Assembly (NCBI GenBank): GCA_902773635.1
Contig: CACYFH010000009.1
Coordinates: forward strand, 1-34,670
Length of the DNA stretch: 34,670 nt
Direction: 5' to 3'
From: an uncultured Ruminococcus sp.
Lineage (GTDB): Bacteria > Bacillota > Clostridia > Oscillospirales > Acutalibacteraceae
The translations under genes and the position numbers were made by a program. Positions 3,311 to 34,446 of this stretch are shown here, one piece after another. Under the pieces are notes generated by a model. It made no database searches. It was not told the DNA's origin and saw only the letters and a list, made by a program, of their open reading frames with translations. Every line of letters begins with the position of its first letter. Position 1 is the first letter of the stretch.

Positions 3311-3446
3311 TGTAGGGCGGGGGCTTGCTCCCGCCGAAACTTTTCATATAGATCTGTTCTATATGCGAAGCAAATGAGCTTGATCTGCTTCGCAAAATAA
3401 TGACAGAAAACTGAAAGGTCTCGGCGGGAGCAAGACCCCGCCCTAC
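3311..3446. repeat. Palindromic repeat family A, full copy (MITE-like)
   Basis: The two ends form an inverted repeat of about 30 bases with roughly 28 matches: TGTAGGGCGGGGGCTTGCTC at the left, its near-complement ending CCCCGCCCTACA at the right. A second inner palindrome (TGCGAAGCA / TGCTTCGCA) lies between. Related copies are at 5797-5987 and 10541-10620. It follows the ATP-grasp gene and may serve as its transcript end. Confidence 0.8.
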
Positions 3447-3452
3447 ATAGTT

Positions 3453-4057: not shown

Positions 4058-4125
4058 ACATAAGGAACGAATAGAGAATAACGAATAAATAATATTCCGC
4101 TCAAAACGCGGACAAGAAGGGTAAA

Positions 4126-4200
4126 GGCTCCCTTTGGTAAAGGGAGCTGTCCCCGCAAGGGGACTGAGGGATTGCATAAACTGATCGAGCGTTAGCGAGA
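4126..4200. repeat. Palindromic repeat family C, copy 1
   Basis: It begins GGCTCCCTTTGGTAAAGGGA, then a second hairpin (GTCCCCGCAAGGGGAC), then TGAGGGATTGCATAA and a GAGCGTTAGCGAG tail. The same architecture recurs at 21352-21435 and inside a gene at 32078-32165. Confidence 0.8.
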
Positions 4201-4226
4201 AACATTTTTAAATATACTGTTGTTAT

Positions 4227-5769: not shown

Positions 5770-5799
5770 CCCCGAGCAATCGTGCTCGGGGTTGCTTGT
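5770..5799 (+). terminator. Terminator of the dpaAB operon
   Basis: CCCCGAGCA-ATCG-TGCTCGGGG, nine perfect pairs, followed by TTGCTTGT. The T-tract is interrupted, so termination strength is moderate. Repeat A begins inside the tail. Confidence 0.65.
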
Positions 5800-5987
5800 A
5801 GGGCGGGGGTACCCCCGTTGGGGGAATGTCCGAAGGACAAGGGGAGGAGCCGTCTCCGGCGAGGAATGCTCCCGCCGAATGCTTTTCCAATAGATGAAGT
5901 TTTTATGCGTAGCATATCAAGCTCGTCTTGCTTCGCTTATTCGAAAATAAATCTGAAACGTTTCGGCGGGAGCAACCCCCGCCCTAC
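5797..5987. repeat. Palindromic repeat family A, long copy
   Basis: It begins TGTAGGGCGGGGG and ends CCCCCGCCCTAC, with inner TGCTCCCGCCGAA and TTCGGCGGGAGCA arms. Relative to the copy at 3311 it holds about 58 extra bases in the left arm (from TACCCCCGTTGGGGG to CGAGGAAT). The first 80 bases are identical to 10541-10620. It fills most of the 388-base gap between dpaB and the next gene; overlapping open frames here are artefacts of the repeat. Confidence 0.85.
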
Positions 5988-10540: not shown

Positions 10541-10620
10541 TGTAGGGCGGGGGTACCCCCGTTGGGGGAATGTCCGAAGGACAAGGGGAGGAGCCGTCTC
10601 CGGCGAGGAATGCTCCCGCC
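10541..10620. repeat. Palindromic repeat family A, left half only
   Basis: 80 bases identical to 5797-5876, from TGTAGGGCGGGGG to TGCTCCCGCC. The right half of the element is missing. Identity over 80 bases suggests recent copying or conversion. Confidence 0.85.
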
Positions 10621-10687
10621 GCGCGACCTTTCTCCAATTGTCGCCTTTAAGGGCAGTCCGGCACAACCGAATACACCGCAAACCTCG

Positions 10688-10828: not shown

Positions 10829-13800
10829 ATGAAAGGAAGATTTTGGAAAAAGACCCTGTCAGTCTGTCTGGCTCTCTTGATGATCGCGGCGCTCGTTCCG
10901 GCGCAGCTCATCGCGAGCGTCGGCGCGGCGACCGGCGTCTCTTATCTCAGCAGGAGCTGGGACGGCTCACAGGTCGTAACGGAGACGAAAACTGTCGACT
11001 GTCAGGATTATAATTTCGGCATTACCGATCTCAACGGTTGGTACTATGTGAACGGATACTACGAAGTGAGCCAAAGATTGAATGTCACAGGTACAGCCAA
11101 CATCGTCATCCAGGATGGCTCCACTTTATTGGCGAAGGATGGCATTCACGTTCCGGAGGGAACGACGCTCAACGTCTATAACGCACCCGGCGGCGAGAAC
11201 GGCAGGCTGGTGTGCCAGGTAGACACCAACAACGCGGCAGCCATCGGCGGCAACGATGGTGAAGTCTGCGGTACTGTCAATATTTACAGCGGAACCGTTA
11301 TCGCAAATACCCGCGACAACGGCGAAGACGCGGCGGGTATCGGCGGCGGCTACGGCGGCTACGGCGGTCATATCAATATCTACGGCGGCACGGTCGACGC
11401 GACCGGCGGCTCTTCTTCATATGACGGCGGCGCGGGCATCGGCGGCGGCGGTCAAAGCTGGGGCGGCTTTATCACAATCTACGGCGGCAAAGTTACTGCT
11501 CAAGGCGGCGCGAATGCGGCAGGAATCGGCGGCGGCGACGAAGGCATGAGCGGCGATATCGTGATCTTCGGCGGCACCGTCAAGGCGACCGGCGGCTCTG
11601 TGAATTCCGACGGCGGCGCGGGTATCGGCGGCGGTAATGAAAAAGGCGTCAATAACATCGTTATATACGGCGGTAATGTCACAGCACAGGGCGGCTGTGA
11701 CGGAGCAGGAATCGGCGGCGGTGACGCCGGCGACGGCGGCAATATCACGATCGTCGGCAATACTACTGTCAATGCGACCGGCGGCAAATACGGCGCGGGT
11801 ATCGGCGGCGGCCAAGGCAAGGGCGGCGGCACGATCAAAATCAACGGTGCTGCTGTCACCGTCACCGCTCAGGGTGGCGACTACGGCGCAGGTATCGGCG
11901 GTGGTCAAAACGGCTCCGACTTTACAATCGAGCTCACCAATGCGAACGTAACCGCAACGGGCGGCGATAATGCCGCGGGTATCGGCGGCGGTGACGGCGG
12001 CTATGCCGATTCCATCACGATCACCGGCGGTATCATCAACGCGACCGGCGGTTCTGCAAATCTTGACGGCGGCGCAGGTATCGGCGGCGGTAACGAAAAA
12101 CAGGGCGGTATCATCACGATCACCAACAGCGACGTCACCGCTAAGGGCGGCGCTGACGGCGCGGGCGTCGGCGGCGGCGACGGCGGCGACGGCGGCACGA
12201 TCACCATCACCGACGGCAAGGTCGAGGCAACCGGCGGCGCCAACGCCTCAGGTATCGGCGGCGGAGACCACGGAAGCGGCGGTTTCATCACGATCAACAG
12301 CGGTACCGTTATCGCAAACGGCGGCGAAGACGCGGCGGGTATCGGCGGCGGAGAAAACGCCGACGGCGGCGTGATCACTATTAATGACGGCGTCGTCACC
12401 GCAACGGGCGGACAAGACGGCGCAGGTATCGGCGGCGGCGGCGACGGCGCGGCGTCCGGCGGTAACGGCGGCGTGATCACCATCAACGGCGGCAAGGTCA
12501 CAGCGAACGGCGGTAAATTTCATAAGGAAGTCGAAGGCACACATTACAACGACGGCGCCGCAGGTATCGGCGGCGGCTATCTGGGCAACGGCGGAATCAT
12601 CAAGATCACCGGCGGCGAGGTCACGGCGACAAGCGGTTACCAGGCGGCAGCTATCGGCGGCGGTGACGGCGGCTCGAGCGGCAATATCACGATAACCGGC
12701 GGTACAGTCAGAGCCAAAACTCTTGCGTATTTTGTTTCTTGGACGAATAAATCGGACGCAGCTGCCGGCATCGGCGACGGAATGAGCGTTCACGGAGATT
12801 CCGAACGCATCATCACGATTTCCGGCGGAGACATCGTTACAGAAACTGTGGATGAAACTAACCCTTATCTTCATGGCGGCGCCGGTATTGGCTCAGGCTA
12901 CGGCGGAAGCGGCTCCGAGAATATGAAGATCATCATCACCGGCGGTAAGGTCGTGGCAAACGGTGCTCCTAGCTCCGCGGGTATCGGCGGAGGCGAAGGA
13001 AAGTACGTCGGTGAGATCTCTATCAGCGGAGATGCCAATATCATCGCAAGAGGCGGCGGATTCGGCGCGGGTATCGGCGGCGGAGCTAAGGCTAAGTCCG
13101 GAAAGATCACGATCTCCGGCGGCGCGATCGAAGCCTACGGCGGAAATGGCGGCGCAGGCGTCGGTTCCGGTGCTGCGTGCACCCAAAAAGATAATTCTGT
13201 GGATATCACGATCTCCGGCGGCAATATCAAAGCGAACGGCGGTGCTGGTATTAAATATTATCAGGAAAGTTATTATTTTCCGGGAGCGAGTATCGGCGCA
13301 GGCGGTTGTAAACAGGAGATTTTACATGGTACTGATTATGGAGACATTGTAGATAAGTCTTATTTTGCCGGAAACATCTATCTGAACGGCGGTACGATCA
13401 CTGCCAACCGAACCATCGGAGCGACCCGTGAGGAGGCGCTTGACGGTGCAGAGGGCGAGGTCTATTTCAACGGCGCGACCGTGCAGATCGAAACGGATGA
13501 AAATTATCCTTCCGTAAGAGCTACAAACATCAAACTCAGAGACGACGATGAGTATCCTCAGAATGTCGCCTATAAGAACAGCGATTCCGATGCGCTTACC
13601 AAGGTACCGAAAGCCGACCGTATCGCTACTCTGAAGGAAGAAGCAAAAAAGATCGTGTTTGTATCGCCCTGTGTGCATTCAGATATGACCTATACCGATA
13701 ACGGCGATAACCATATAGCGGATTGCCCTCACTGCCACAGAAACTACACGGCGCCGCATCGCTTCGGTGAGCCGGTATGGAACTGGGCGGGGGATCACCT

Positions 13801-16800
13801 CTCAGCAACAGCGACCTTCACCTGTGAGGATTGCGGTCACAAGACTACTTTGGACGCAATAGTCTCTAAAACCGAGGGTTATGCAGAGAATATCTATAAG
13901 GCTGTTGTCGAATTCCAAGGCAAAATGTACGATACGGAATTCGTGGAGTACTTCAAGCCCGCAAACGTATCCTATAAGAAAGCGAAGTATACTCCCGGTG
14001 AGAACGATCCGGCGAACGGCGCCGTCTCTTATGACGATGCAACGGTAACGGATTATACCGAGGTCACCGCTACCGAGAACACATGGAGCGACGGCGCCTA
14101 CGTCGTTCTGCATGATACTGTTGTCAGCGAGAAGATCACGGTCACCGGCAACGTCGATCTGATCCTCTGTGACGATACGGCGCTGACTGCCGCGAACGGC
14201 ATCACCGTCAGCAGTGGCGGTCACCTCAATATCTATATTCAGGAAAAGGGCACCGGCAAGCTGATCGCCAACGGCACACCCGGAACAGATAAATCAAGCG
14301 ATAAGACAGACGGCTCTACGGCGATCGAAGGCTCCGTCACCGTCCACGGCGGCGAGATCACCGCGATCGGCGGCAAGGGCGGCGAAGGCTCCGGCAGCTC
14401 GAGATGGAGTCGCGGAGGAGACGGCGGCAAGGGCAGCTTTGGATTCTCCGGCGACGTCGTCATCTACGGCGGCACCGTCAAGGCAGTCGGCGGCAACGGC
14501 GGCAGGGGCGGCTATGGTTATTATTCAGGACACGGCGGCGTCGGCGGTTTCGGCTTGAACGGAAATATCGAGATCTACGGCGGTTCGTTCGACCTGAGCG
14601 GCGGCATCGGCGGCAGAGGTGATAACGGTACAATAAATTATGTTCTTGCCGGAGAAAACGGCGGCGCGATCACTGCGACACGCGCGAAGATCTGGGGCAA
14701 CCCGACCTTTGTCACCCAGCCGTTCACCGAGGTAGCCTACAAGGCTCCTACCGTCGATGCGACAGGTAATATCCTCTATTACAAAACTGACGTCGGCGAT
14801 CGCTATTTCTGTGAAAACCGCATCTATACGCCCGCCGACAAGGACGTAACTCTTCCGAAGATCGACCTCAAGCATGTTGCGGCGGCTGCTTCTACCTGTA
14901 TCAAGAACGGTAACATCGAATATTGGTACAGCGAGCATTATAATAAGTATTATTCCGACGATAAAGCCAAGAACGAGATCACGGCTGAGAGCGTCGTTCT
15001 CCCCATGATCGCCCACACCTACGGTGCGCCGACATGGAGCTGGGCGGACGACTGCCAAACAGCGACAGCGATCTCCGTTTGCTCCGTGTGCCATCAGCCT
15101 TTTGAATTTGAGGCAACGGTCACATCCGTTCAGGAGGAGCTCAAGACCACCTACACCGCGACGGTAGTGATCGACGGCACGACCTATACCGATAAGGTCG
15201 AGGCCAATAAGCCGAAGAAATACGTCGCGCAGATCGAGCCGTATATCGACGATAACGGCGCCTATATCCTCGGCACGAAGGAACATTATGTGATCGAAGG
15301 CAAAAACTATGCCGTCAACGAGGACAAGACCGTCGGCGAAAAGCTCGATTCTGTCGAACTCAACTATTTTGACTTTAAACTTGACAACTACGAGAACTAC
15401 AACATACTCGGCTATACCGGCTCCTACGACGGCCTTGACGAGCTGGTGATCCCCAAAACCTACAAGGGTAAGCCTATCACGGCTCTCGGTTCCGATAACG
15501 GCGAAGGATTCATGGGTAAGGCGACCGGCGAGAAAAAGCAGTTTGTCTTACGATTGAATGAGAACATCAAAGAGATCAAGAACAGCGCATTCTATGACTC
15601 ATTTGTGACCAAGGTCGTCGGCGATACCTCCGGTCTGAACACTCTCGGTGTGTATGCGTTCTCTCAGGCAAACTCCCCTGACGGCTACACACTGGATATC
15701 ACGTTCGATTATCCCGGAGAGATCACCACAGAAGCGAGCACCTTCAACAATATGAATGTCACCATTCACCTGACGCACAGCGCATGGATCACGAATGAAA
15801 GCAGCGGTTCGGTGCAGAAAATCATCTATGACATCACCGACGATCAGCATACCTACGGCGAACCCGTCTGGTCTTGGGCGGATGACTGCAGCTCGGCAAC
15901 CGCGACCTTCACCTGCACCGATTCGCGCTGTAAGCATGCTCAGACCGTGGATGCAGCGATAGAGAGAACCGCCGTCCACGACGACGGTACAGCGACCTTC
16001 ACCGCGACGGCTGAGCTTGACGGCAGGAGCTATACCGATACAAAGACGGGCTATGCCGATACGCTCGGGGCAAAGCTCGTCGGCCGCTCGATCTCCCTCG
16101 ACGGCGATATCGGCGTCAACTTTTACATGGAGCTGTCCGACGCTGTCGCAAAGAGCAGCACAGCCTATATGCACTTCACCATCCCGAAGAACGGCGAGCC
16201 CGCCACACAGGATATCAAGGTATCCGACGCAAGACCCGTTGAGTCCGGCGACAAGACCTACTATGTCTTCAAGTGCCAGGTAGCCGCGAAGGAGATGACC
16301 TCCGATATCAAGGCGCGGATCATCGACGGCGAGAAGCTCGGTACGGAGTTCACCTATTCCGTCAAGGATTACGCCGACTATCTGCTCGCGCATACCGAGG
16401 AGAGGGAAGACCTCGCGAAGGCGGCTCCTTTGGTAAAAGCCTTGCTCAACTACGGCGCATATGCCCAGATCCATTTTGACAAGACCTCTAAGGGACTTGC
16501 GAACGCCGGCCTGACAGAAGCAGAAAAGGCGCTCCCTGATTTCACGATCGACGTCGCGGAGCCTGTCATCGGCAAGCTGCCTGCGGGCACGACCTTTGCG
16601 GGCGCGTCCCTCTCGCTGAAGTCCGAGACCACCCTCTCGCTCTACTTCAAGAGCGATTCCGCGCTCACCTTCTCCTGCGGCAAGTATACCGTTGAGAACG
16701 TGAAGAACGGCGACTATCAGGTAGCGCGTATCCGAGGCATCAAGGCGAAGAAGCTCGGCAGCACCCTCACCCTGAACGTCAGCGGCGCGACCGTCAAGTA

Positions 16801-18976
16801 CAGCCCGCTGAACTACTGCAAGTATATGCTGGCTAATGATAAAGCCGACGCAAACCTGAAAAATGTGTTGAAGGCGCTGTATTGGTACTACATGGCTGCC
16901 GATACATATTTTGTCGAAGCTCCTCATGACCATACTCCCGGCGAGGCGGTACGCGAGAACGTAGTTCCGTCAACCTGCGCTTCTGCGGGCAGCTATGACG
17001 AGACCGTCTACTGCACGGAGTGCGGCGAGGAGATCAGCAGAGAAACAAAAACCATCGACAAACTCGCGCATACTCTCACGGCAGTCGCCGAGGTTCCGGC
17101 AACTGTCAAAACGGCAGGAACAGCCGCGCACTACGAGTGCTCGGTATGTCACAAGCTCTTTTCGGACGCAGAGGGCAAGAATGAGACCACAGCGGAGGCT
17201 CTCGTGATCCCGATGCTTGATCCGATCCTTGACCTGAGCGCCGTGACCGAGGATACCGTTGTACTGGACGGTCAGATCATTATCGGCAAGCTCAACGGCA
17301 ACTATAAAATTTCTATCGCTGACGACGCGACCGTCACCCTCAGAAACGCGGATATCACCTGCCTGTCCGAGGGCGCCGCATACGCCGGTATCACCCTCCT
17401 GGGCAACGCGACCGTCGTCTTAGAGGGCGAGAATACCGTCAAGGGCGGATTAAAACGTAATTTTGGCAGGTATTCCGGCAATTATCCGGGTATCTATGTT
17501 CCTAAGGACAGAGACCTCATCATTGACGGCGAAGGCTCTCTCTATGCTTCACCCGGTAGTGCTGCAGGAGAAGCTTTCGGCTGCGGAATCGGCGGCGAAT
17601 ATGAGGGCGACGCCGGCAATATCATCATCAATAACGGTAATATCACAGCCGCCGGCGGTACCGGCGCAGCCGGTATCGGAAGCGCCAATCAGGGAGAATG
17701 CGGCGATATCGTCATCCTTGGCGGCACTGTCACAGCTACCGGCGGTGACGACGCAGCCGGTATCGGAGCCGGATTCTATGGAAAATGCGGTGAGATCGTG
17801 ATCTTTAATACTATCACAAAGGTCACCGCGACAAAGGGCGAAAATTATACCAGCGGGCAGTACAGCATGATCGGTGCAGGCATCGGCGGTACCTGCGGCA
17901 CCGTGAACATCGGGGAAGGTCTCATCTCTGCCGAAAACGGCGATACCGTTGTGATCACCCCGAATCCCGACGAGCACATCGTTGATCTCAGAAAACTGAC
18001 CGGCGACTACGAAGCGCAGGACGGCGACGTGCTGAGCGGCAAGCTCTCCGGCAACAAGAAGATCACCATAGCCCCCGATGCGACCGTCACGCTCAGAAAC
18101 GCGGATATCACATCTCTGGACGAAGACGCGGATTACGCCGGTATCACCCCCTTAGGCAATGCGACCATCATCCTCGGCGGAGAGAATACCGTCAAGGGCG
18201 GTTATGTGATCTACGGGTACAATGACGACGGGGAAAAGGAAGCGTATGGAGATCACCCCGGCATTTTAGCTCCCGAGGGCTTTACTCTCACCATCGACGG
18301 CACCGGTGTGCTGAACGTATCCTCAAACGGCTGGGGCAGCGGCATCGGCGGCGGATATAACATGAGCGCCGGCAATATCGTTATCAAAGGCGGCGTCATA
18401 TATGCCGACGGAGGTGAATCAGTTGCCGCGATCGGAAGCGGCAGCGACGCAAGCTGCGGCGATATTACCATCACCGGAGGTAGTGTGTTTGCCGCCGGCG
18501 GTGAGTACGCGGCAGGTATCGGAACCGGCGCAGATGGAAAGTGCGGTAGTATTATGATCACCGGCGGTACTGTTTCAGCCACCGGCGGTGAGTTCGCGGC
18601 GGGTATCGGAAGCGGCAACAGCATCGACTCAAGCTGCGGTGATATCACGATCACCGGCGGTACTGTCTCAGCCACCGGCGGTGAGAACGCGGCGGGTATC
18701 GGAACCGGTGCATATGGAACATGCGGTAAAATCACGATCAGCGGCGGTAATGTTTCAGCTACCGGCAGCTATAGCGCGGCAGGTATCGGAACCGGTCGTA
18801 ACGGAAGAGGCGAAGAAATCACGATCACAAACACCGTCACTAAGGTCACCGCGACAAAGGGCGAGGGTGCTCCCGACTCCATCGGCGCAGGTAAAGAAGG
18901 CGCCTGCGGAACCGTGACCATCGGCGGCGTAGTAGGAGCTATTTCCGAAAGCCCCTATACTTATCAGCCTGAATAA
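10829..18976 (+). CDS. Giant secreted glycine-rich repeat protein (2715 residues)
   Basis: Residues 1-34 are a signal peptide (KKTLSVCLALLMIAALVPA). Residues about 136-830 hold some 21 repeats of about 30-40 residues, pattern AAGIGGG-x-GG-ITI-x-GG-xVTAxGG, which suggests a right-handed beta-helix. From about 948, 1394 and 1671 come Cys-containing modules sharing HxxGxPxWxWADD and CxxC. A second glycine-rich block is at about 1171-1268. About 1524-1668 resembles BspA-type LRR (LNENIKEIKNSAFYDS). About 1747-2028 is an unrecognised globular domain (GDIGVNFYMEL). Another Cys module (2031-2129) precedes two copies of a VTLRNADITxL / ENTVKGG domain, each followed by AAGIG repeats carrying a Cys per turn. 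There is no LPXTG or C-terminal membrane helix, so it is either released or held non-covalently. Role unknown; surface adhesion or glycan binding is a guess. Confidence 0.85.
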   Translation: MKGRFWKKTLSVCLALLMIAALVPAQLIASVGAATGVSYLSRSWDGSQVVTETKTVDCQDYNFGITDLNGWYYVNGYYEVSQRLNVTGTANIVIQDGSTLLAKDGIHVPEGTTLNVYNAPGGENGRLVCQVDTNNAAAIGGNDGEVCGTVNIYSGTVIANTRDNGEDAAGIGGGYGGYGGHINIYGGTVDATGGSSSYDGGAGIGGGGQSWGGFITIYGGKVTAQGGANAAGIGGGDEGMSGDIVIFGGTVKATGGSVNSDGGAGIGGGNEKGVNNIVIYGGNVTAQGGCDGAGIGGGDAGDGGNITIVGNTTVNATGGKYGAGIGGGQGKGGGTIKINGAAVTVTAQGGDYGAGIGGGQNGSDFTIELTNANVTATGGDNAAGIGGGDGGYADSITITGGIINATGGSANLDGGAGIGGGNEKQGGIITITNSDVTAKGGADGAGVGGGDGGDGGTITITDGKVEATGGANASGIGGGDHGSGGFITINSGTVIANGGEDAAGIGGGENADGGVITINDGVVTATGGQDGAGIGGGGDGAASGGNGGVITINGGKVTANGGKFHKEVEGTHYNDGAAGIGGGYLGNGGIIKITGGEVTATSGYQAAAIGGGDGGSSGNITITGGTVRAKTLAYFVSWTNKSDAAAGIGDGMSVHGDSERIITISGGDIVTETVDETNPYLHGGAGIGSGYGGSGSENMKIIITGGKVVANGAPSSAGIGGGEGKYVGEISISGDANIIARGGGFGAGIGGGAKAKSGKITISGGAIEAYGGNGGAGVGSGAACTQKDNSVDITISGGNIKANGGAGIKYYQESYYFPGASIGAGGCKQEILHGTDYGDIVDKSYFAGNIYLNGGTITANRTIGATREEALDGAEGEVYFNGATVQIETDENYPSVRATNIKLRDDDEYPQNVAYKNSDSDALTKVPKADRIATLKEEAKKIVFVSPCVHSDMTYTDNGDNHIADCPHCHRNYTAPHRFGEPVWNWAGDHLSATATFTCEDCGHKTTLDAIVSKTEGYAENIYKAVVEFQGKMYDTEFVEYFKPANVSYKKAKYTPGENDPANGAVSYDDATVTDYTEVTATENTWSDGAYVVLHDTVVSEKITVTGNVDLILCDDTALTAANGITVSSGGHLNIYIQEKGTGKLIANGTPGTDKSSDKTDGSTAIEGSVTVHGGEITAIGGKGGEGSGSSRWSRGGDGGKGSFGFSGDVVIYGGTVKAVGGNGGRGGYGYYSGHGGVGGFGLNGNIEIYGGSFDLSGGIGGRGDNGTINYVLAGENGGAITATRAKIWGNPTFVTQPFTEVAYKAPTVDATGNILYYKTDVGDRYFCENRIYTPADKDVTLPKIDLKHVAAAASTCIKNGNIEYWYSEHYNKYYSDDKAKNEITAESVVLPMIAHTYGAPTWSWADDCQTATAISVCSVCHQPFEFEATVTSVQEELKTTYTATVVIDGTTYTDKVEANKPKKYVAQIEPYIDDNGAYILGTKEHYVIEGKNYAVNEDKTVGEKLDSVELNYFDFKLDNYENYNILGYTGSYDGLDELVIPKTYKGKPITALGSDNGEGFMGKATGEKKQFVLRLNENIKEIKNSAFYDSFVTKVVGDTSGLNTLGVYAFSQANSPDGYTLDITFDYPGEITTEASTFNNMNVTIHLTHSAWITNESSGSVQKIIYDITDDQHTYGEPVWSWADDCSSATATFTCTDSRCKHAQTVDAAIERTAVHDDGTATFTATAELDGRSYTDTKTGYADTLGAKLVGRSISLDGDIGVNFYMELSDAVAKSSTAYMHFTIPKNGEPATQDIKVSDARPVESGDKTYYVFKCQVAAKEMTSDIKARIIDGEKLGTEFTYSVKDYADYLLAHTEEREDLAKAAPLVKALLNYGAYAQIHFDKTSKGLANAGLTEAEKALPDFTIDVAEPVIGKLPAGTTFAGASLSLKSETTLSLYFKSDSALTFSCGKYTVENVKNGDYQVARIRGIKAKKLGSTLTLNVSGATVKYSPLNYCKYMLANDKADANLKNVLKALYWYYMAADTYFVEAPHDHTPGEAVRENVVPSTCASAGSYDETVYCTECGEEISRETKTIDKLAHTLTAVAEVPATVKTAGTAAHYECSVCHKLFSDAEGKNETTAEALVIPMLDPILDLSAVTEDTVVLDGQIIIGKLNGNYKISIADDATVTLRNADITCLSEGAAYAGITLLGNATVVLEGENTVKGGLKRNFGRYSGNYPGIYVPKDRDLIIDGEGSLYASPGSAAGEAFGCGIGGEYEGDAGNIIINNGNITAAGGTGAAGIGSANQGECGDIVILGGTVTATGGDDAAGIGAGFYGKCGEIVIFNTITKVTATKGENYTSGQYSMIGAGIGGTCGTVNIGEGLISAENGDTVVITPNPDEHIVDLRKLTGDYEAQDGDVLSGKLSGNKKITIAPDATVTLRNADITSLDEDADYAGITPLGNATIILGGENTVKGGYVIYGYNDDGEKEAYGDHPGILAPEGFTLTIDGTGVLNVSSNGWGSGIGGGYNMSAGNIVIKGGVIYADGGESVAAIGSGSDASCGDITITGGSVFAAGGEYAAGIGTGADGKCGSIMITGGTVSATGGEFAAGIGSGNSIDSSCGDITITGGTVSATGGENAAGIGTGAYGTCGKITISGGNVSATGSYSAAGIGTGRNGRGEEITITNTVTKVTATKGEGAPDSIGAGKEGACGTVTIGGVVGAISESPYTYQPE

Positions 18977-21308: not shown

Positions 21309-21351
21309 GCTTGTTGAAAATGCAATATAGTAAGGAGCGCCGCGCATACAA

Positions 21352-21435
21352 GGCTCCCTTTGGTAAAGGGAGGACGCGCGCGTCTTAATCCTGAGGGATT
21401 GTACAAATTGCCTGAGGCGTAGCCGAGAGTACAAA
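21352..21435. repeat. Palindromic repeat family C, copy 2
   Basis: GGCTCCCTTTGGTAAAGGGAG, then a GGACGCGCGCGTCTT hairpin replacing the GTC/GAC one, then CTGAGGGATTGTACAAATTG and a GAGGCGTAGCCGAGAGTACAAA tail. The changed inner stem is still self-complementary. Confidence 0.78.
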
Positions 21436-30649: not shown

Positions 30650-31696
30650 ATGTATACCGAAAGTGAACTGAAAAAGCACCTGAACAGTGGCAGCTTCCGC
30701 AATCTCTACCTGACCTTCGGTGAGGAGAAGATGCTCGTGAAGCGTTCCGCCGAGCTGATCCTGAAGAAGGTCTCCGGCGGCGACCTGAGCGAGTTCAACT
30801 ACCATGAATTTGACAACAACAGCGATATTGCGGATATCTCCGTCAGCGCGGATATCATCCCCTTCATGAGCGAGCGCAACATCGTCCGCATCACGGATAT
30901 GGACGTCGACAAGCTCGGCAAGAGCAATTTCGAAGCCCTGATGAAGATCCTGCAAAATCTCCCTTCTTCCACCGTCGTGATCTTCACCATGCCCACCCTC
31001 GACGTCACCTCCAAGACCGCCAAGGAACCGATGAAGAAGCTGATCTCCTTCATCGACAAGAACGGCGTCTGCCTCGAGCTGACCCACCGCACAGGTCTCG
31101 CCCTCGAGCGCGATCTCTGCAAGTGGGCGAAGGCGGGCGGCTGCACCATGACCGAGCTGACCGCCCATACCCTCGTCCAGTACGTCGGCGAGGATCTCAA
31201 CCGCCTCAACGCCGAGATGAAGAAGCTCACCGCCTATGCCGACGGTGCGGAGATTACCCCCGAGATGATCGACCTGCTCGTCTCCAAAAGCACCGACGCC
31301 AGCGTCTACGACCTTTTCGGCTACATCATCAGCGGCAAGCTCGACCCCGCTCTCCGCGCCCTCTCCGTCCTTTTCTACCAGCGCGTCGAGCCGGTCTATA
31401 TCGTCACCGTCCTCTCCGGCGCCTACCTCGACGCCTACCGCGCGCGCGTCGGCACAGAAGCCGGCAAGCCCTCAGCGGAGATAGGGAAGGACTTCAACTA
31501 CAAAAAACGCGCCTGGGTGCTCGATAAGATCGCCCGTCAGATCAAGAGCGTCTCCACCCCTGCCTTGCGGAGAAGTCTCGACGAGCTTCTCTCCGCCCAG
31601 ACCCGCCTGGTCACAGAAGCGGTCGACGGCACCGCCGAGGTCGAGCGCCTTGTCTGCACCCTCGCCCTGATCGCGGAGGATCGCGCTGATGCCTGA
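30650..31696 (+). CDS. holA: DNA polymerase III delta subunit
   Basis: 348 residues, normal length. HolA is the subunit of the clamp loader that opens the beta sliding clamp. The N-terminus YTESELKKHL and NLYLTFGEEKMLVKRSAELI is typical. Features further on include the ERNIVRITDMDVDK strand, LVQYVGEDLNRLNAEMKKL and SKSTDASVYDLFGYIISG. Placement directly after comEC is the common order in Firmicutes. It overlaps the TOPRIM gene by 8 bases. Confidence 0.93.
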   Translation: MYTESELKKHLNSGSFRNLYLTFGEEKMLVKRSAELILKKVSGGDLSEFNYHEFDNNSDIADISVSADIIPFMSERNIVRITDMDVDKLGKSNFEALMKILQNLPSSTVVIFTMPTLDVTSKTAKEPMKKLISFIDKNGVCLELTHRTGLALERDLCKWAKAGGCTMTELTAHTLVQYVGEDLNRLNAEMKKLTAYADGAEITPEMIDLLVSKSTDASVYDLFGYIISGKLDPALRALSVLFYQRVEPVYIVTVLSGAYLDAYRARVGTEAGKPSAEIGKDFNYKKRAWVLDKIARQIKSVSTPALRRSLDELLSAQTRLVTEAVDGTAEVERLVCTLALIAEDRADA

Positions 31697-32360
31697 GAAG
31701 ATACAGCTGAAAGAAGCCGTCCTCGTAGAAGGCCGCTACGACCGCATCAAGCTCAGCGAGTTCATCGCTTCGCCCATCATCGAGACCGGCGGCTTCCGCG
31801 TGTTCAAGGATAAGGAGAAGCAGGCTCTGATCCGCGCCATCGCCGCGCGCCGCGGCATCCTCGTCATGACCGACGTCGACTCCGCGGGCTTCGTGATCCG
31901 CAACTTCCTGCGCGGCATCGTCCCGGAATCTCAGCTTCTCCATGCCTACATCCCGACAGTACAGGGCAAGGAACGCCGCAAGCCCGAACCCTCCAAGGAA
32001 GGCGTCCTCGGCGTAGAGGGACTCGACCGCGAGACCCTCCTCAAAGCCATCCAAACCTCCGGCGCACATATAAATGAGGCTCCCTTTGGTAAAGGGAGCT
32101 GTCGCGAAGCGACTGAGGGATTGCATAATTGTCCGAGCGGACACGAGTGTCCCGCGAGTAACCATTCCCCCCTCACCAAGCTCGACCTCTACACCTACTC
32201 CCTCAGCGGCACTCCCGACGCCGCGAAGAACCGCGCCGCCCTGCTCTCCGCCCTCGGACTGCCCAAATACCTCACCGCGAACGCCCTCCTCTCCGCCCTC
32301 AACTGCCTGTTCACCAAAGAGGAATTCGAGCGTTATCTCGACACCACAGACTTCTCCTGA
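31689..32360 (+). CDS. rnmV: RNase M5-like TOPRIM protein (DUF4093) with a translated repeat insertion
   Basis: 223 residues. The N-terminal TOPRIM domain has VEGRYD (13-18), IETGGF and TDVDSAG (61-67, Asp62 and Asp64), as in RNase M5, which matures 5S rRNA. GVLGVEGLDRETLLKAI follows, and then TKLDLYTYSLSGTPDAAKNR onward matches the C-terminal DUF4093 part. Between them, about residues 130-159 (GAHINEAPF to PASNH) are encoded by a family-C palindromic repeat and have no counterpart in the family. The frame is kept through about 100 bases, so a full-length protein is still predicted. Whether it is active is unknown. Confidence 0.82.
   Translation: MPEKIQLKEAVLVEGRYDRIKLSEFIASPIIETGGFRVFKDKEKQALIRAIAARRGILVMTDVDSAGFVIRNFLRGIVPESQLLHAYIPTVQGKERRKPEPSKEGVLGVEGLDRETLLKAIQTSGAHINEAPFGKGSCREATEGLHNCPSGHECPASNHSPLTKLDLYTYSLSGTPDAAKNRAALLSALGLPKYLTANALLSALNCLFTKEEFERYLDTTDFS
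32078..32165. repeat. Palindromic repeat family C, copy inside the RNase M5-like gene
   Basis: GGCTCCCTTTGGTAAAGGGA, then GTCGCGAAGCGAC, TGAGGGATTGCATAATTG and a GTCCGAGCGGACACGAGTG tail. It shares more than 40 bases almost exactly with 4126-4180 apart from the inner loop. It has no in-frame stop in the gene's frame. Confidence 0.85.
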
Positions 32361-33309: not shown

Positions 33310-34446
33310 ATGAAACAAAAGATCGACCGCATAACAACCGGAGCTAAGAGCATTTCTCTGCGTACCCTCGCAATGGTGCTCTGCTTTGTCATGCTCCTCT
33401 CCGCTATCGGCGTAGGCACCGTGGTCACCGCGATCGCGAAGTCATCCAACGCCAAGGCGGCAGCCGCCGGCGCGCTCTCCAGAGCTGTCGCTGACGTCGC
33501 TGTTGAGGAAGAGGACGATGACGACGTTGTTGTTACCAAGAAATCCGACTCTGACCTTGCCGACACCGGAGCGGCTGATGTTTATGCGGTCGCAGGTTCG
33601 TGGGATAACTGGACAAAGCACTATTTTACCGGTTCGACCGGATCGGCTACGGTGTCAATTAATCTTGCCGACAACACCAGTTATACATTTAAGATTTATT
33701 CAAGCTACAGCAAAACATGGTATGGCGCTGATCATACCTTTACCGGAACTCAGAGCGATTATTATTTTATGACGAGTAAGGAGCAGATCGGACGGAAGGC
33801 AGAGCTTGTCTATGCCACCGCTCCGACGCCCGAACAGCTGTCCTCTCTTAAGGAAGCGGTCAGACGGCGCTACGGGCTTGAGCCGGGAGAGCTAAATCTT
33901 CTGGAAAGGCTGTTCCGCGGGGAATACTATCTCTCCCAGCGCATCCTGATCGACGGCGCACTCGAATGCGGCAGTGAAGTCACGCATTTTACGGCGCTTA
34001 ATGACATAGCGGTAAGCGGTGTCTACGGCAAGGTCTTTGACTTTTCCGTCTTTTCCGACGATCACATGATCGGCCGCTACCGTGCCGACGGAATGGTCTG
34101 CTCGACCCCGACCGGATCGACGGCCTATGCGCTTTCTGCCGGAGGGCCTCTGATGGAACCGGAGCTGTCGCTCATTGAGATCACGCTGATCTGTCCGCAT
34201 TCGCTGTTCAACCGGCCGCTGCTGCTGTCGGCGGACAGAACCGTGACGATCCGTCATGCGGCGGACGATTCGCGGGACATCATTCTGAGCGCCGACGGTG
34301 AGAGGCCGGTGCCGTTCCCGCCGGATGCACAGCTCACGATCCGGCGTTCGGAGAGTATGGTATCCATCATTCATCTGCACAGCGGCAGCTTTTATGATGC
34401 AGTCAGCCGCAAGCTGATGCAATCCATCAAGGGCTTCGGAGAATAG
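33310..34446 (+). CDS. Chimeric ORF: secreted carbohydrate-binding-type protein joined to C-terminal NAD kinase
   Basis: 378 residues in one frame, GGGAGGA before the ATG. Residues 1-45 are a signal/anchor (LAMVLCFVMLLSAIGVGTVV). An acidic linker (VEEEDDDDVVV) and a small beta-domain (AVAGSWDNWTKHYFTG, NTSYTFKIYSS, TWYGADHTFTG) follow to about residue 154, resembling starch-binding modules of Ruminococcus secreted proteins. From about residue 191 the protein is the C-terminal part of NAD kinase: LLERLFRGEYYLSQRILID, then ALNDIAVSG (N231, D232) and DGMVCSTPTGSTAYALSAGG (from 260). The N-terminal NadK part with GGDGT is absent. Residues 155-190 fit neither part clearly. A secreted NAD kinase makes no biological sense and composition changes, so an assembly joint is likely. 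Confidence 0.75.
   Translation: MKQKIDRITTGAKSISLRTLAMVLCFVMLLSAIGVGTVVTAIAKSSNAKAAAAGALSRAVADVAVEEEDDDDVVVTKKSDSDLADTGAADVYAVAGSWDNWTKHYFTGSTGSATVSINLADNTSYTFKIYSSYSKTWYGADHTFTGTQSDYYFMTSKEQIGRKAELVYATAPTPEQLSSLKEAVRRRYGLEPGELNLLERLFRGEYYLSQRILIDGALECGSEVTHFTALNDIAVSGVYGKVFDFSVFSDDHMIGRYRADGMVCSTPTGSTAYALSAGGPLMEPELSLIEITLICPHSLFNRPLLLSADRTVTIRHAADDSRDIILSADGERPVPFPPDAQLTIRRSESMVSIIHLHSGSFYDAVSRKLMQSIKGFGE

Follow-up and report, generated by a model that had tools for sequence, protein, structure and literature searches.

Does a small palindromic repeat lie in frame inside an RNA-processing gene, and is it read there as part of the protein? The question comes from a 34,670-nucleotide stretch of an uncultured Ruminococcus sp. 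genome (GenBank assembly GCA_902773635.1, contig CACYFH010000009.1, positions 1 to 34,670), here called the window, in which a sequence-only reading had seen an otherwise intergenic repeat translated within an RNase M5-like gene. The genome is a 1.66-Mb draft in 68 contigs, 75% complete, with the window as its contig C9. The main features are as follows, with scores for the repeat from a covariance model, R1, described below.

4125-4204, forward strand: intergenic copy of the repeat, family C (97.9 bits, R1 training member)
21351-21432, forward strand: diverged intergenic copy of family C (46.5 bits, R1)
30650-31696, forward strand: holA (DNA polymerase III delta; PF06144, E 7e-13), overlapping the start of rnmV
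31689-32360, forward strand: rnmV, an RNase M5-like ORF of 223 aa with TOPRIM domain, linker and C-terminal DUF4093/RNA-binding part
32077-32163, forward strand: family-C palindromic element of 87 nt, inside rnmV

The palindromic repeat is indeed present in the RNase M5-like gene, and the ORF stays stop-free across it; its extent, first given as 32069-32169, becomes 32077-32163. With blastn at E ≤ 0.01 we found at least 47 matches to it in its own genome, the best other copy at E 9e-23; this number is a lower bound, with 40 of the 66 first-look candidates scored. Forty-four of the 47 copies were examined with their flanks (three short ones were omitted), and rnmV was the only recognisable gene around any of the 44, the other ORFs being judged by eye. 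R1 was built from 44 copies, among them the rnmV copy and the copy at 4125, and gave clear matches at three places in the window (4125-4204, 21351-21432 and 32077-32152); the rnmV copy, a training member, scored 88 bits. The other two fall between long forward ORFs, which bears out the earlier statement that the family is intergenic near 4126 and 21352. Beyond this genome, in a sample of 147 genomes from the order, R1 matched 46, belonging to 34 of 86 genera, at E ≤ 1e-5. An Rfam scan of the window returned no family at gathering score, and a literature search, judged by title and the start of the abstract, found no publication treating family C.

The copies follow a common plan of stem I (AGGCTCCCTTTGGTAAAGGGAGCT), a variable second stem, a box (GAGGGATTG), a spacer and a variable third stem, and terminate near GAGWWWCC; full copies mostly measure 76-96 nt. 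The parts of the rnmV copy are listed here.

32077-32100, forward strand: stem I, AGGCTCCCTTT-GGT-AAAGGGAGCT, conserved among copies (alignment A4, fold)
32101-32113, forward strand: stem II, GTCGC-GAA-GCGAC, variable in sequence between copies, with pairing retained
32115-32125, forward strand: box GAGGGATTGCA, its GAGGGATT invariant in 44 aligned copies (A4)
32137-32155, forward strand: stem III region, GCGGACACGAGTGTCCCGC, variable between copies (by inspection)

This copy folds at an MFE of -34.2 kcal/mol (z -2.55), with the stem III region partly differently folded in the single-strand MFE structure. Pairing was compared across 90 distinct copies from ten genomes, whose middle segments comprise 71 different sequences; the sample holds the better-scoring copies, with at most 15 candidates scored per genome, and the rnmV copies of genomes G035 and G017 were deliberately left out. 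A stem II of at least 6 bp is possible in 47 of the 71 distinct segments, against 12.4% of equally re-optimised chimeras of two copies (8.8% with unlike arms), and family C is therefore a structured repeat with compensated change. Self-complementary structure is retained among the copies in the stem II test and in stem I of A4, and shows also in the z of the window copy.

Within rnmV the element covers codons 130-159 (both ends partial) and adds 29 residues, EAPFGKGSCREATEGLHNCPSGHECPASN, in good agreement with the roughly 30 in-frame residues first proposed. Its 87 nt are divisible by three, as is the length of 13 of 59 copies as cut. The copy in the HflX gene of G067 measures 83 nt and yet adds 28 codons. 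Together these two observations mean that family-C ends are uncertain by at least one base. Read from the sequence, stem I is open in two sense frames and has a TAA in the third.

What kind of protein receives the insert? The Pfam DUF4093 model (PF13331) matches residues 107-216 (E 3e-16), so the insert, which had been placed between TOPRIM and DUF4093, does lie between the two domains of the protein but falls inside the DUF4093 model, after its first helix. An AlphaFold model built from 63 sequences (mean pLDDT 83.7) drops below 50 at residues 134-155 only, a stretch flanked by helices at 114-124 and 164-169, both in confident regions. The insert is accordingly predicted by this model to be a disordered stretch between two folded domains. 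The best match among solved folds is 6tpq_B (RNase M5 on the 50S; E 8e-6, 219 columns), with a TM of only 0.35-0.41, an rmsd of 17.7 and the domains differently placed. Next is 6tg6, the RNase M5 TOPRIM domain (TM 0.75 by target), and the C-terminal RNA-binding domain matches 6tgj_B (prob 0.89, E 0.68). As the top-ranking solved fold is that of RNase M5, the label RNase M5-like is supported, and the modelled structure suggests an RNase M5 function for the window protein. The solved RNase M5 structures (6tg6, 6z2b, 6tpq, 6tgj) combine a TOPRIM domain with a C-terminal RNA-binding domain as the window protein does; the window protein differs in carrying a repeat insert and in scoring 46.3 bits with TIGR00334 (RNase M5), under the cut-off of 110.65. 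On this second count the identification first made is weaker than on the fold. None of 12 genus members tested passes the TIGR00334 cut-off. All 12 genomes have rnmV, and ten also have a weak TIGR00334 match in a frame of 591-621 aa, which we took for DnaG by its length; the search, at E ≤ 0.01, gave no matches besides these. A second rnmV copy was not found in the window's own genome (75% complete).

The description of this protein as an essential-type enzyme is doubtful. In the available text of PMC12774634, a Listeria mutant deleted for rnmV showed wild-type growth on plates at low temperature, and a paper by Condon et al. that is cited there states in its title that mature 5S rRNA is dispensable in B. 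subtilis. RNase M5 is therefore not likely to be essential.

Insertion-free orthologues are found across the same genus, in other species rather than in strains of the same one. The gene was present in 55 of 59 relatives, most of which are named as uncultured Ruminococcus, Oscillospiraceae or Clostridia and many of which come from rumen and gut, as well as in 148 of 161 genomes of the same genus. The window falls in a clade of 21 (support 95/88) in a tree built from 90 distinct rnmV orthologues, and the 69 outside this clade all have linkers of 9-16 residues. Linkers within the clade range from 13 residues, in three members, to 60. Nine further distinct orthologues whose linkers could not be parsed were omitted from the tree (L102, L103, L108, L111, L119, L126, L140, L143 and L147); their linkers look short. 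The orthologues compared are from other species, and the window insertion itself rests on one assembly. One insertion is seen twice elsewhere, as G017 and G088, whose proteins are 93% identical, have a linker insertion in common.

The long linkers of the clade contain three palindromic families, assigned by motif and by eye and partly nested. Family A (CATTGCGAGGAGC ... GGCAATCTC) is read as HCEE..WQSQP and family B (GTAGGGGAGGGGCTTGCTCCTCCC) as VGEGLAPP; family C is read in either of two sense frames, as RLPLVKGA.. and as EAPFGKGS../EPPFPKGG... By eye the three have no evident sequence kinship. At L091 and L013, a C element is nested within an A element. We ran R1 over all 21 clade loci and seven outsiders at E ≤ 0.01. 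Family C was found in the linker of nine of the 21 (L009, L158, L156, L155, L091, L080, L077, L176 and L181), of which L009 is an R1 training member and L091, L080, L077, L176 and L181 score just 25-28 bits; it was absent from rnmV of all seven outsiders. Neighbouring species differ in the family that fills their linker, and five linker labels need at least nine changes on the tree, a count that misses L154, which reads VGKGLAPPE like L152 and is family B by eye only, outside the B pattern. Part of this turnover could be exchange between species and not new insertion. Five other loci, L162 and L163 (34 aa), L160 (26), L159 (20) and L166 (18), gave no C match and, by pattern, no A or B motif; the long linkers of L162 and L163 are possibly decayed repeats or of another origin.

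Family C also occurs at the N-terminus of the protein or directly 5' of the start in seven of the 21 clade members. It stands before the start at L152, L153, L156 and L181 and is in frame N-terminally at L091, L157 and L077. At the first four loci, the element is preceded by what looks like an old start (ATGAATAA..) and followed immediately by an ATG, and the rnmV start codon therefore seems to have been moved by the element.

Is rnmV alone in taking up the element? In the set of 90 distinct copies, we found 29 ORF frames that run through an element with 20 or more codons on either side. Four of these are recognisable genes, namely rnmV, HflX, AsnB and MetH, and we took the remaining 25, by eye, for overlapping frames. 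HflX (TIGR03156, 448 bits) and AsnB (TIGR01536, 489 bits) are above their NCBIfam cut-offs, and MetH (TIGR02082) scores 425.6 bits on an incomplete stretch, below its cut-off of 1010.85. We compared these three genes across 19 genomes, with 17 readable per gene (our patterns could not read AsnB at L287 and L293 or HflX at L277 and L280). HflX has an insertion in two of 17, where 52 and 70 residues stand in place of the 24 found in the other 15. AsnB has one in a single genome, with a longer loop without recognised repeat in four and a short loop in 12. The MetH linker carries family C in four of 17, antisense in G017, G108 and G092 and sense in G094; three more have a family-A-like stretch by eye, and ten are short, with 57-61 residues between the same anchors (R1 was run on eight of the 17 MetH loci). 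The seven coding copies in these three genes score 36-87 bits under R1; one of them, in HflX of G067, was among the copies used to train the model. The C elements of G108 in HflX and MetH each have a further repeat nested within them. Taken together, the linkers of RNase M5 and MetH are best read as recurrent insertion sites, and the rnmV linker seems to collect repeats that become protein segments.

The window gene bears signs of constraint. Compared with eight relatives, its pN/pS is 0.17-0.27 before the insert and 0.24-0.49 after it, against 0.13-0.21 and 0.20-0.33 in four other pairs, with synonymous sites close to saturation in these comparisons. The window protein retains 44 of the 45 columns that are invariant in the other 62 rows of alignment A3; at the remaining one it has Ser171 where all 62 have Gly. 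No other end branch in the clade is as long as that of its row (0.35). From these values rnmV is under constraint on both sides of the insert, and the end branch, Ser171 and a pN/pS after the insert above that of the other pairs indicate that this constraint may be relaxed.

The linkers themselves change slowly. In all seven species pairs, divergence is lower in the aligned linker than at four-fold sites, for instance 0.07 vs 0.35 in L181/L176, 0.12 vs 0.33 in L156/L155 and 0.03 vs 0.21 in L152/L153; L080/L176 (0.33 vs 0.64) is aligned partly across unlike parts. Such slow change is not predicted by plain neutrality; constraint or gene conversion would explain it, in what is a small sample. 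From its third block on, the L181/L176 tract has four changes in 111 sites, compared with 47 in the next 177 bases downstream, and this near-identity hints at gene conversion or tract exchange.

How the element moves was approached through its ends and through candidate transposases. By eye, the 59 copies with both ends, themselves uncertain, show no consistent target-site duplication. A single RAYT-like Y1 gene is present in the own genome (L326, C13:20055-20339, 26.7 bits), and R1 found no element in the flanks examined. Across 17 Y1-transposase loci in 16 genomes, R1 placed an element near one only, L325, a partial gene in G017. Mobilisation by RAYT is thus unsupported, and no helper transposase for family C was identified among the Y1 loci scanned.

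The window and its genome hold further repeats and unusual frames. Several own-genome C copies lie inside another palindrome (CAATATCATTAAGTTAGGC ... TTTCTTAACTTAATGATATTG; G000:C3:56044, C21:21397, C15:18659), so composite elements occur. Positions 5797-5877 and 10541-10621 are an exact 81-bp repeat with hairpins of its own (TGTAGGGCGGGGG..), and a motif related to it is what is nested in the family-C element of G108 HflX and MetH (L263, L303). An inverted pair of 36-nt repeats of GGGCGGGGGCTTGCTCCCGCC type, 92% complementary and family-B-like by eye, is found at 3311-3346 and 3412-3447. The 2715-aa protein of 10829-18976 has many glycine-rich beta-helix repeats (PF18889). The second half of ORF 33310-34446 is an NAD kinase C-terminal domain (PF20143, residues 239-355), and its first half matches nothing in Pfam and lacks the N-terminal part of NAD kinase; the ORF is possibly a chimera or a deletion near the contig end.

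The closest parallel is with the Rickettsia palindromic elements (RPEs). In the available text of PMC2229807, PMC3733652 and PMC2996958, these are palindromes of 105-146 bp inserted in frame into non-structured segments of 19 genes, and an RPE-bearing guanylate kinase is still active with a changed substrate affinity. As described there, RPEs and family C share short palindromic repeats that are both intergenic and in frame in conserved genes, an open frame through the element, and insertion in non-structured segments (here, in rnmV, by prediction). The parallel drawn in the sequence-only reading is thus strengthened by insertion-free orthologues, other genes with in-frame copies and predicted disorder. 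Family C differs in belonging to another phylum, to gut or rumen Oscillospiraceae going by its named relatives, in its mostly 76-96 nt, and in having several families stacked at one linker in sister species; the two are likened by description and behaviour and not by sequence kinship. Wolbachia palindromic elements and coding repeats of Methanocaldococcus jannaschii are likewise palindromic coding insertions in housekeeping genes, from other lineages and likened by description only (PMC2996958, available text). MITEs with open frames, such as the 107-bp form of Correia/NEMIS, ERIC and YPAL, are also small structured elements fused in frame; most elements in the table of PMC2229807 are given with terminal inverted repeats and target-site duplication (YPAL without), whereas in family C no consistent duplication was seen by eye. 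REP units resemble family C as high-copy hairpins, some within genes (PMC3733652, available text); as these are described, family-C units are longer, with three stems, and there is no element in the examined flanks of the own RAYT-like gene.

With these results in hand, we consider it highly probable that family C is a protein-coding palindromic element of the RPE kind, tolerated in the disordered rnmV linker as 29 translated residues. A wrongly joined repeat copy is a concern in a 68-contig draft with multi-copy repeats and with comparators from other species only. We regard such an assembly artefact as very improbable, given that the element is only 87 nt long and keeps the frame exactly, and that other insertions stand at the same place in separate assemblies, including the one shared by G017 and G088. 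A somewhat less remote idea, though still improbable, is that this rnmV allele has lost all or nearly all of its function and that a decaying gene simply tolerates the insert. The long branch and the raised pN/pS after the insert would fit, as would Ser171 at an otherwise invariant Gly, for which we raised the weight of this explanation slightly, and the loss of RNase M5 in Listeria without growth defect under the plate conditions given in the available text of PMC12774634. However, the frame is intact, 44 of the 45 invariant positions are kept, both domains are confidently predicted, pN/pS is below 0.5 on both sides, and the 75% complete genome yielded no second copy.

The repeat tract might instead have been domesticated, with the hairpins in rnmV mRNA or the peptide being useful, e.g. 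as a structured RNA through which an RNA-cleaving enzyme would feed back on its own level. Repeated occupation of one linker and of the 5' junction of rnmV, compensated stems, and linker tracts that change less than four-fold sites in seven of seven pairs all speak in its favour. MetH, HflX and AsnB are also hit, however, the three families look unrelated by eye, ordinary 13-aa linkers persist in three of 21 clade members, and gene conversion equally explains the slow change; we give domestication little weight, as little as we give gene decay. A broader proposal is that the RNase M5 and MetH linkers are landing pads, where unrelated palindromic families insert, nest and exchange, the tract is kept by selection or gene conversion, and linker sequence comes from mobile DNA rather than point mutation. 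This we put forward as a possibility that we presently doubt.

For the preferred reading, that of a tolerated coding palindrome, the course of events might be as follows. Family C is a small palindromic element in dozens of copies, and would be selfish or neutral. One copy of 87 nt, divisible by three and with an open frame, would have entered the rnmV linker and would now be read as 29 extra residues in a disordered loop between TOPRIM and the C-terminal RNA-binding part. Coding insertions would survive selection only in frame and in flexible linkers or at a terminus, and once a linker is expendable, elements of any family could land there or within one another. We infer that an active window protein is produced, that transposition brought the element to its site, and that the effect of the insert is neutral or mildly harmful.

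The recurrence in the rnmV and MetH linkers, by several families and in sister species, is the stronger result. The available text of the sources cited reports protein-coding palindromes for Rickettsia, Wolbachia, an archaeon and some further bacteria, to which a gut and rumen lineage is added here. In a single enzyme, across 21 sister species, the site is seen both empty and filled, with different families, two reading frames and nesting, and this diversity opens the supply of protein segments by mobile DNA to comparative and biochemical tests. Annotation and homology searches in such genomes will encounter repeat-derived peptides.
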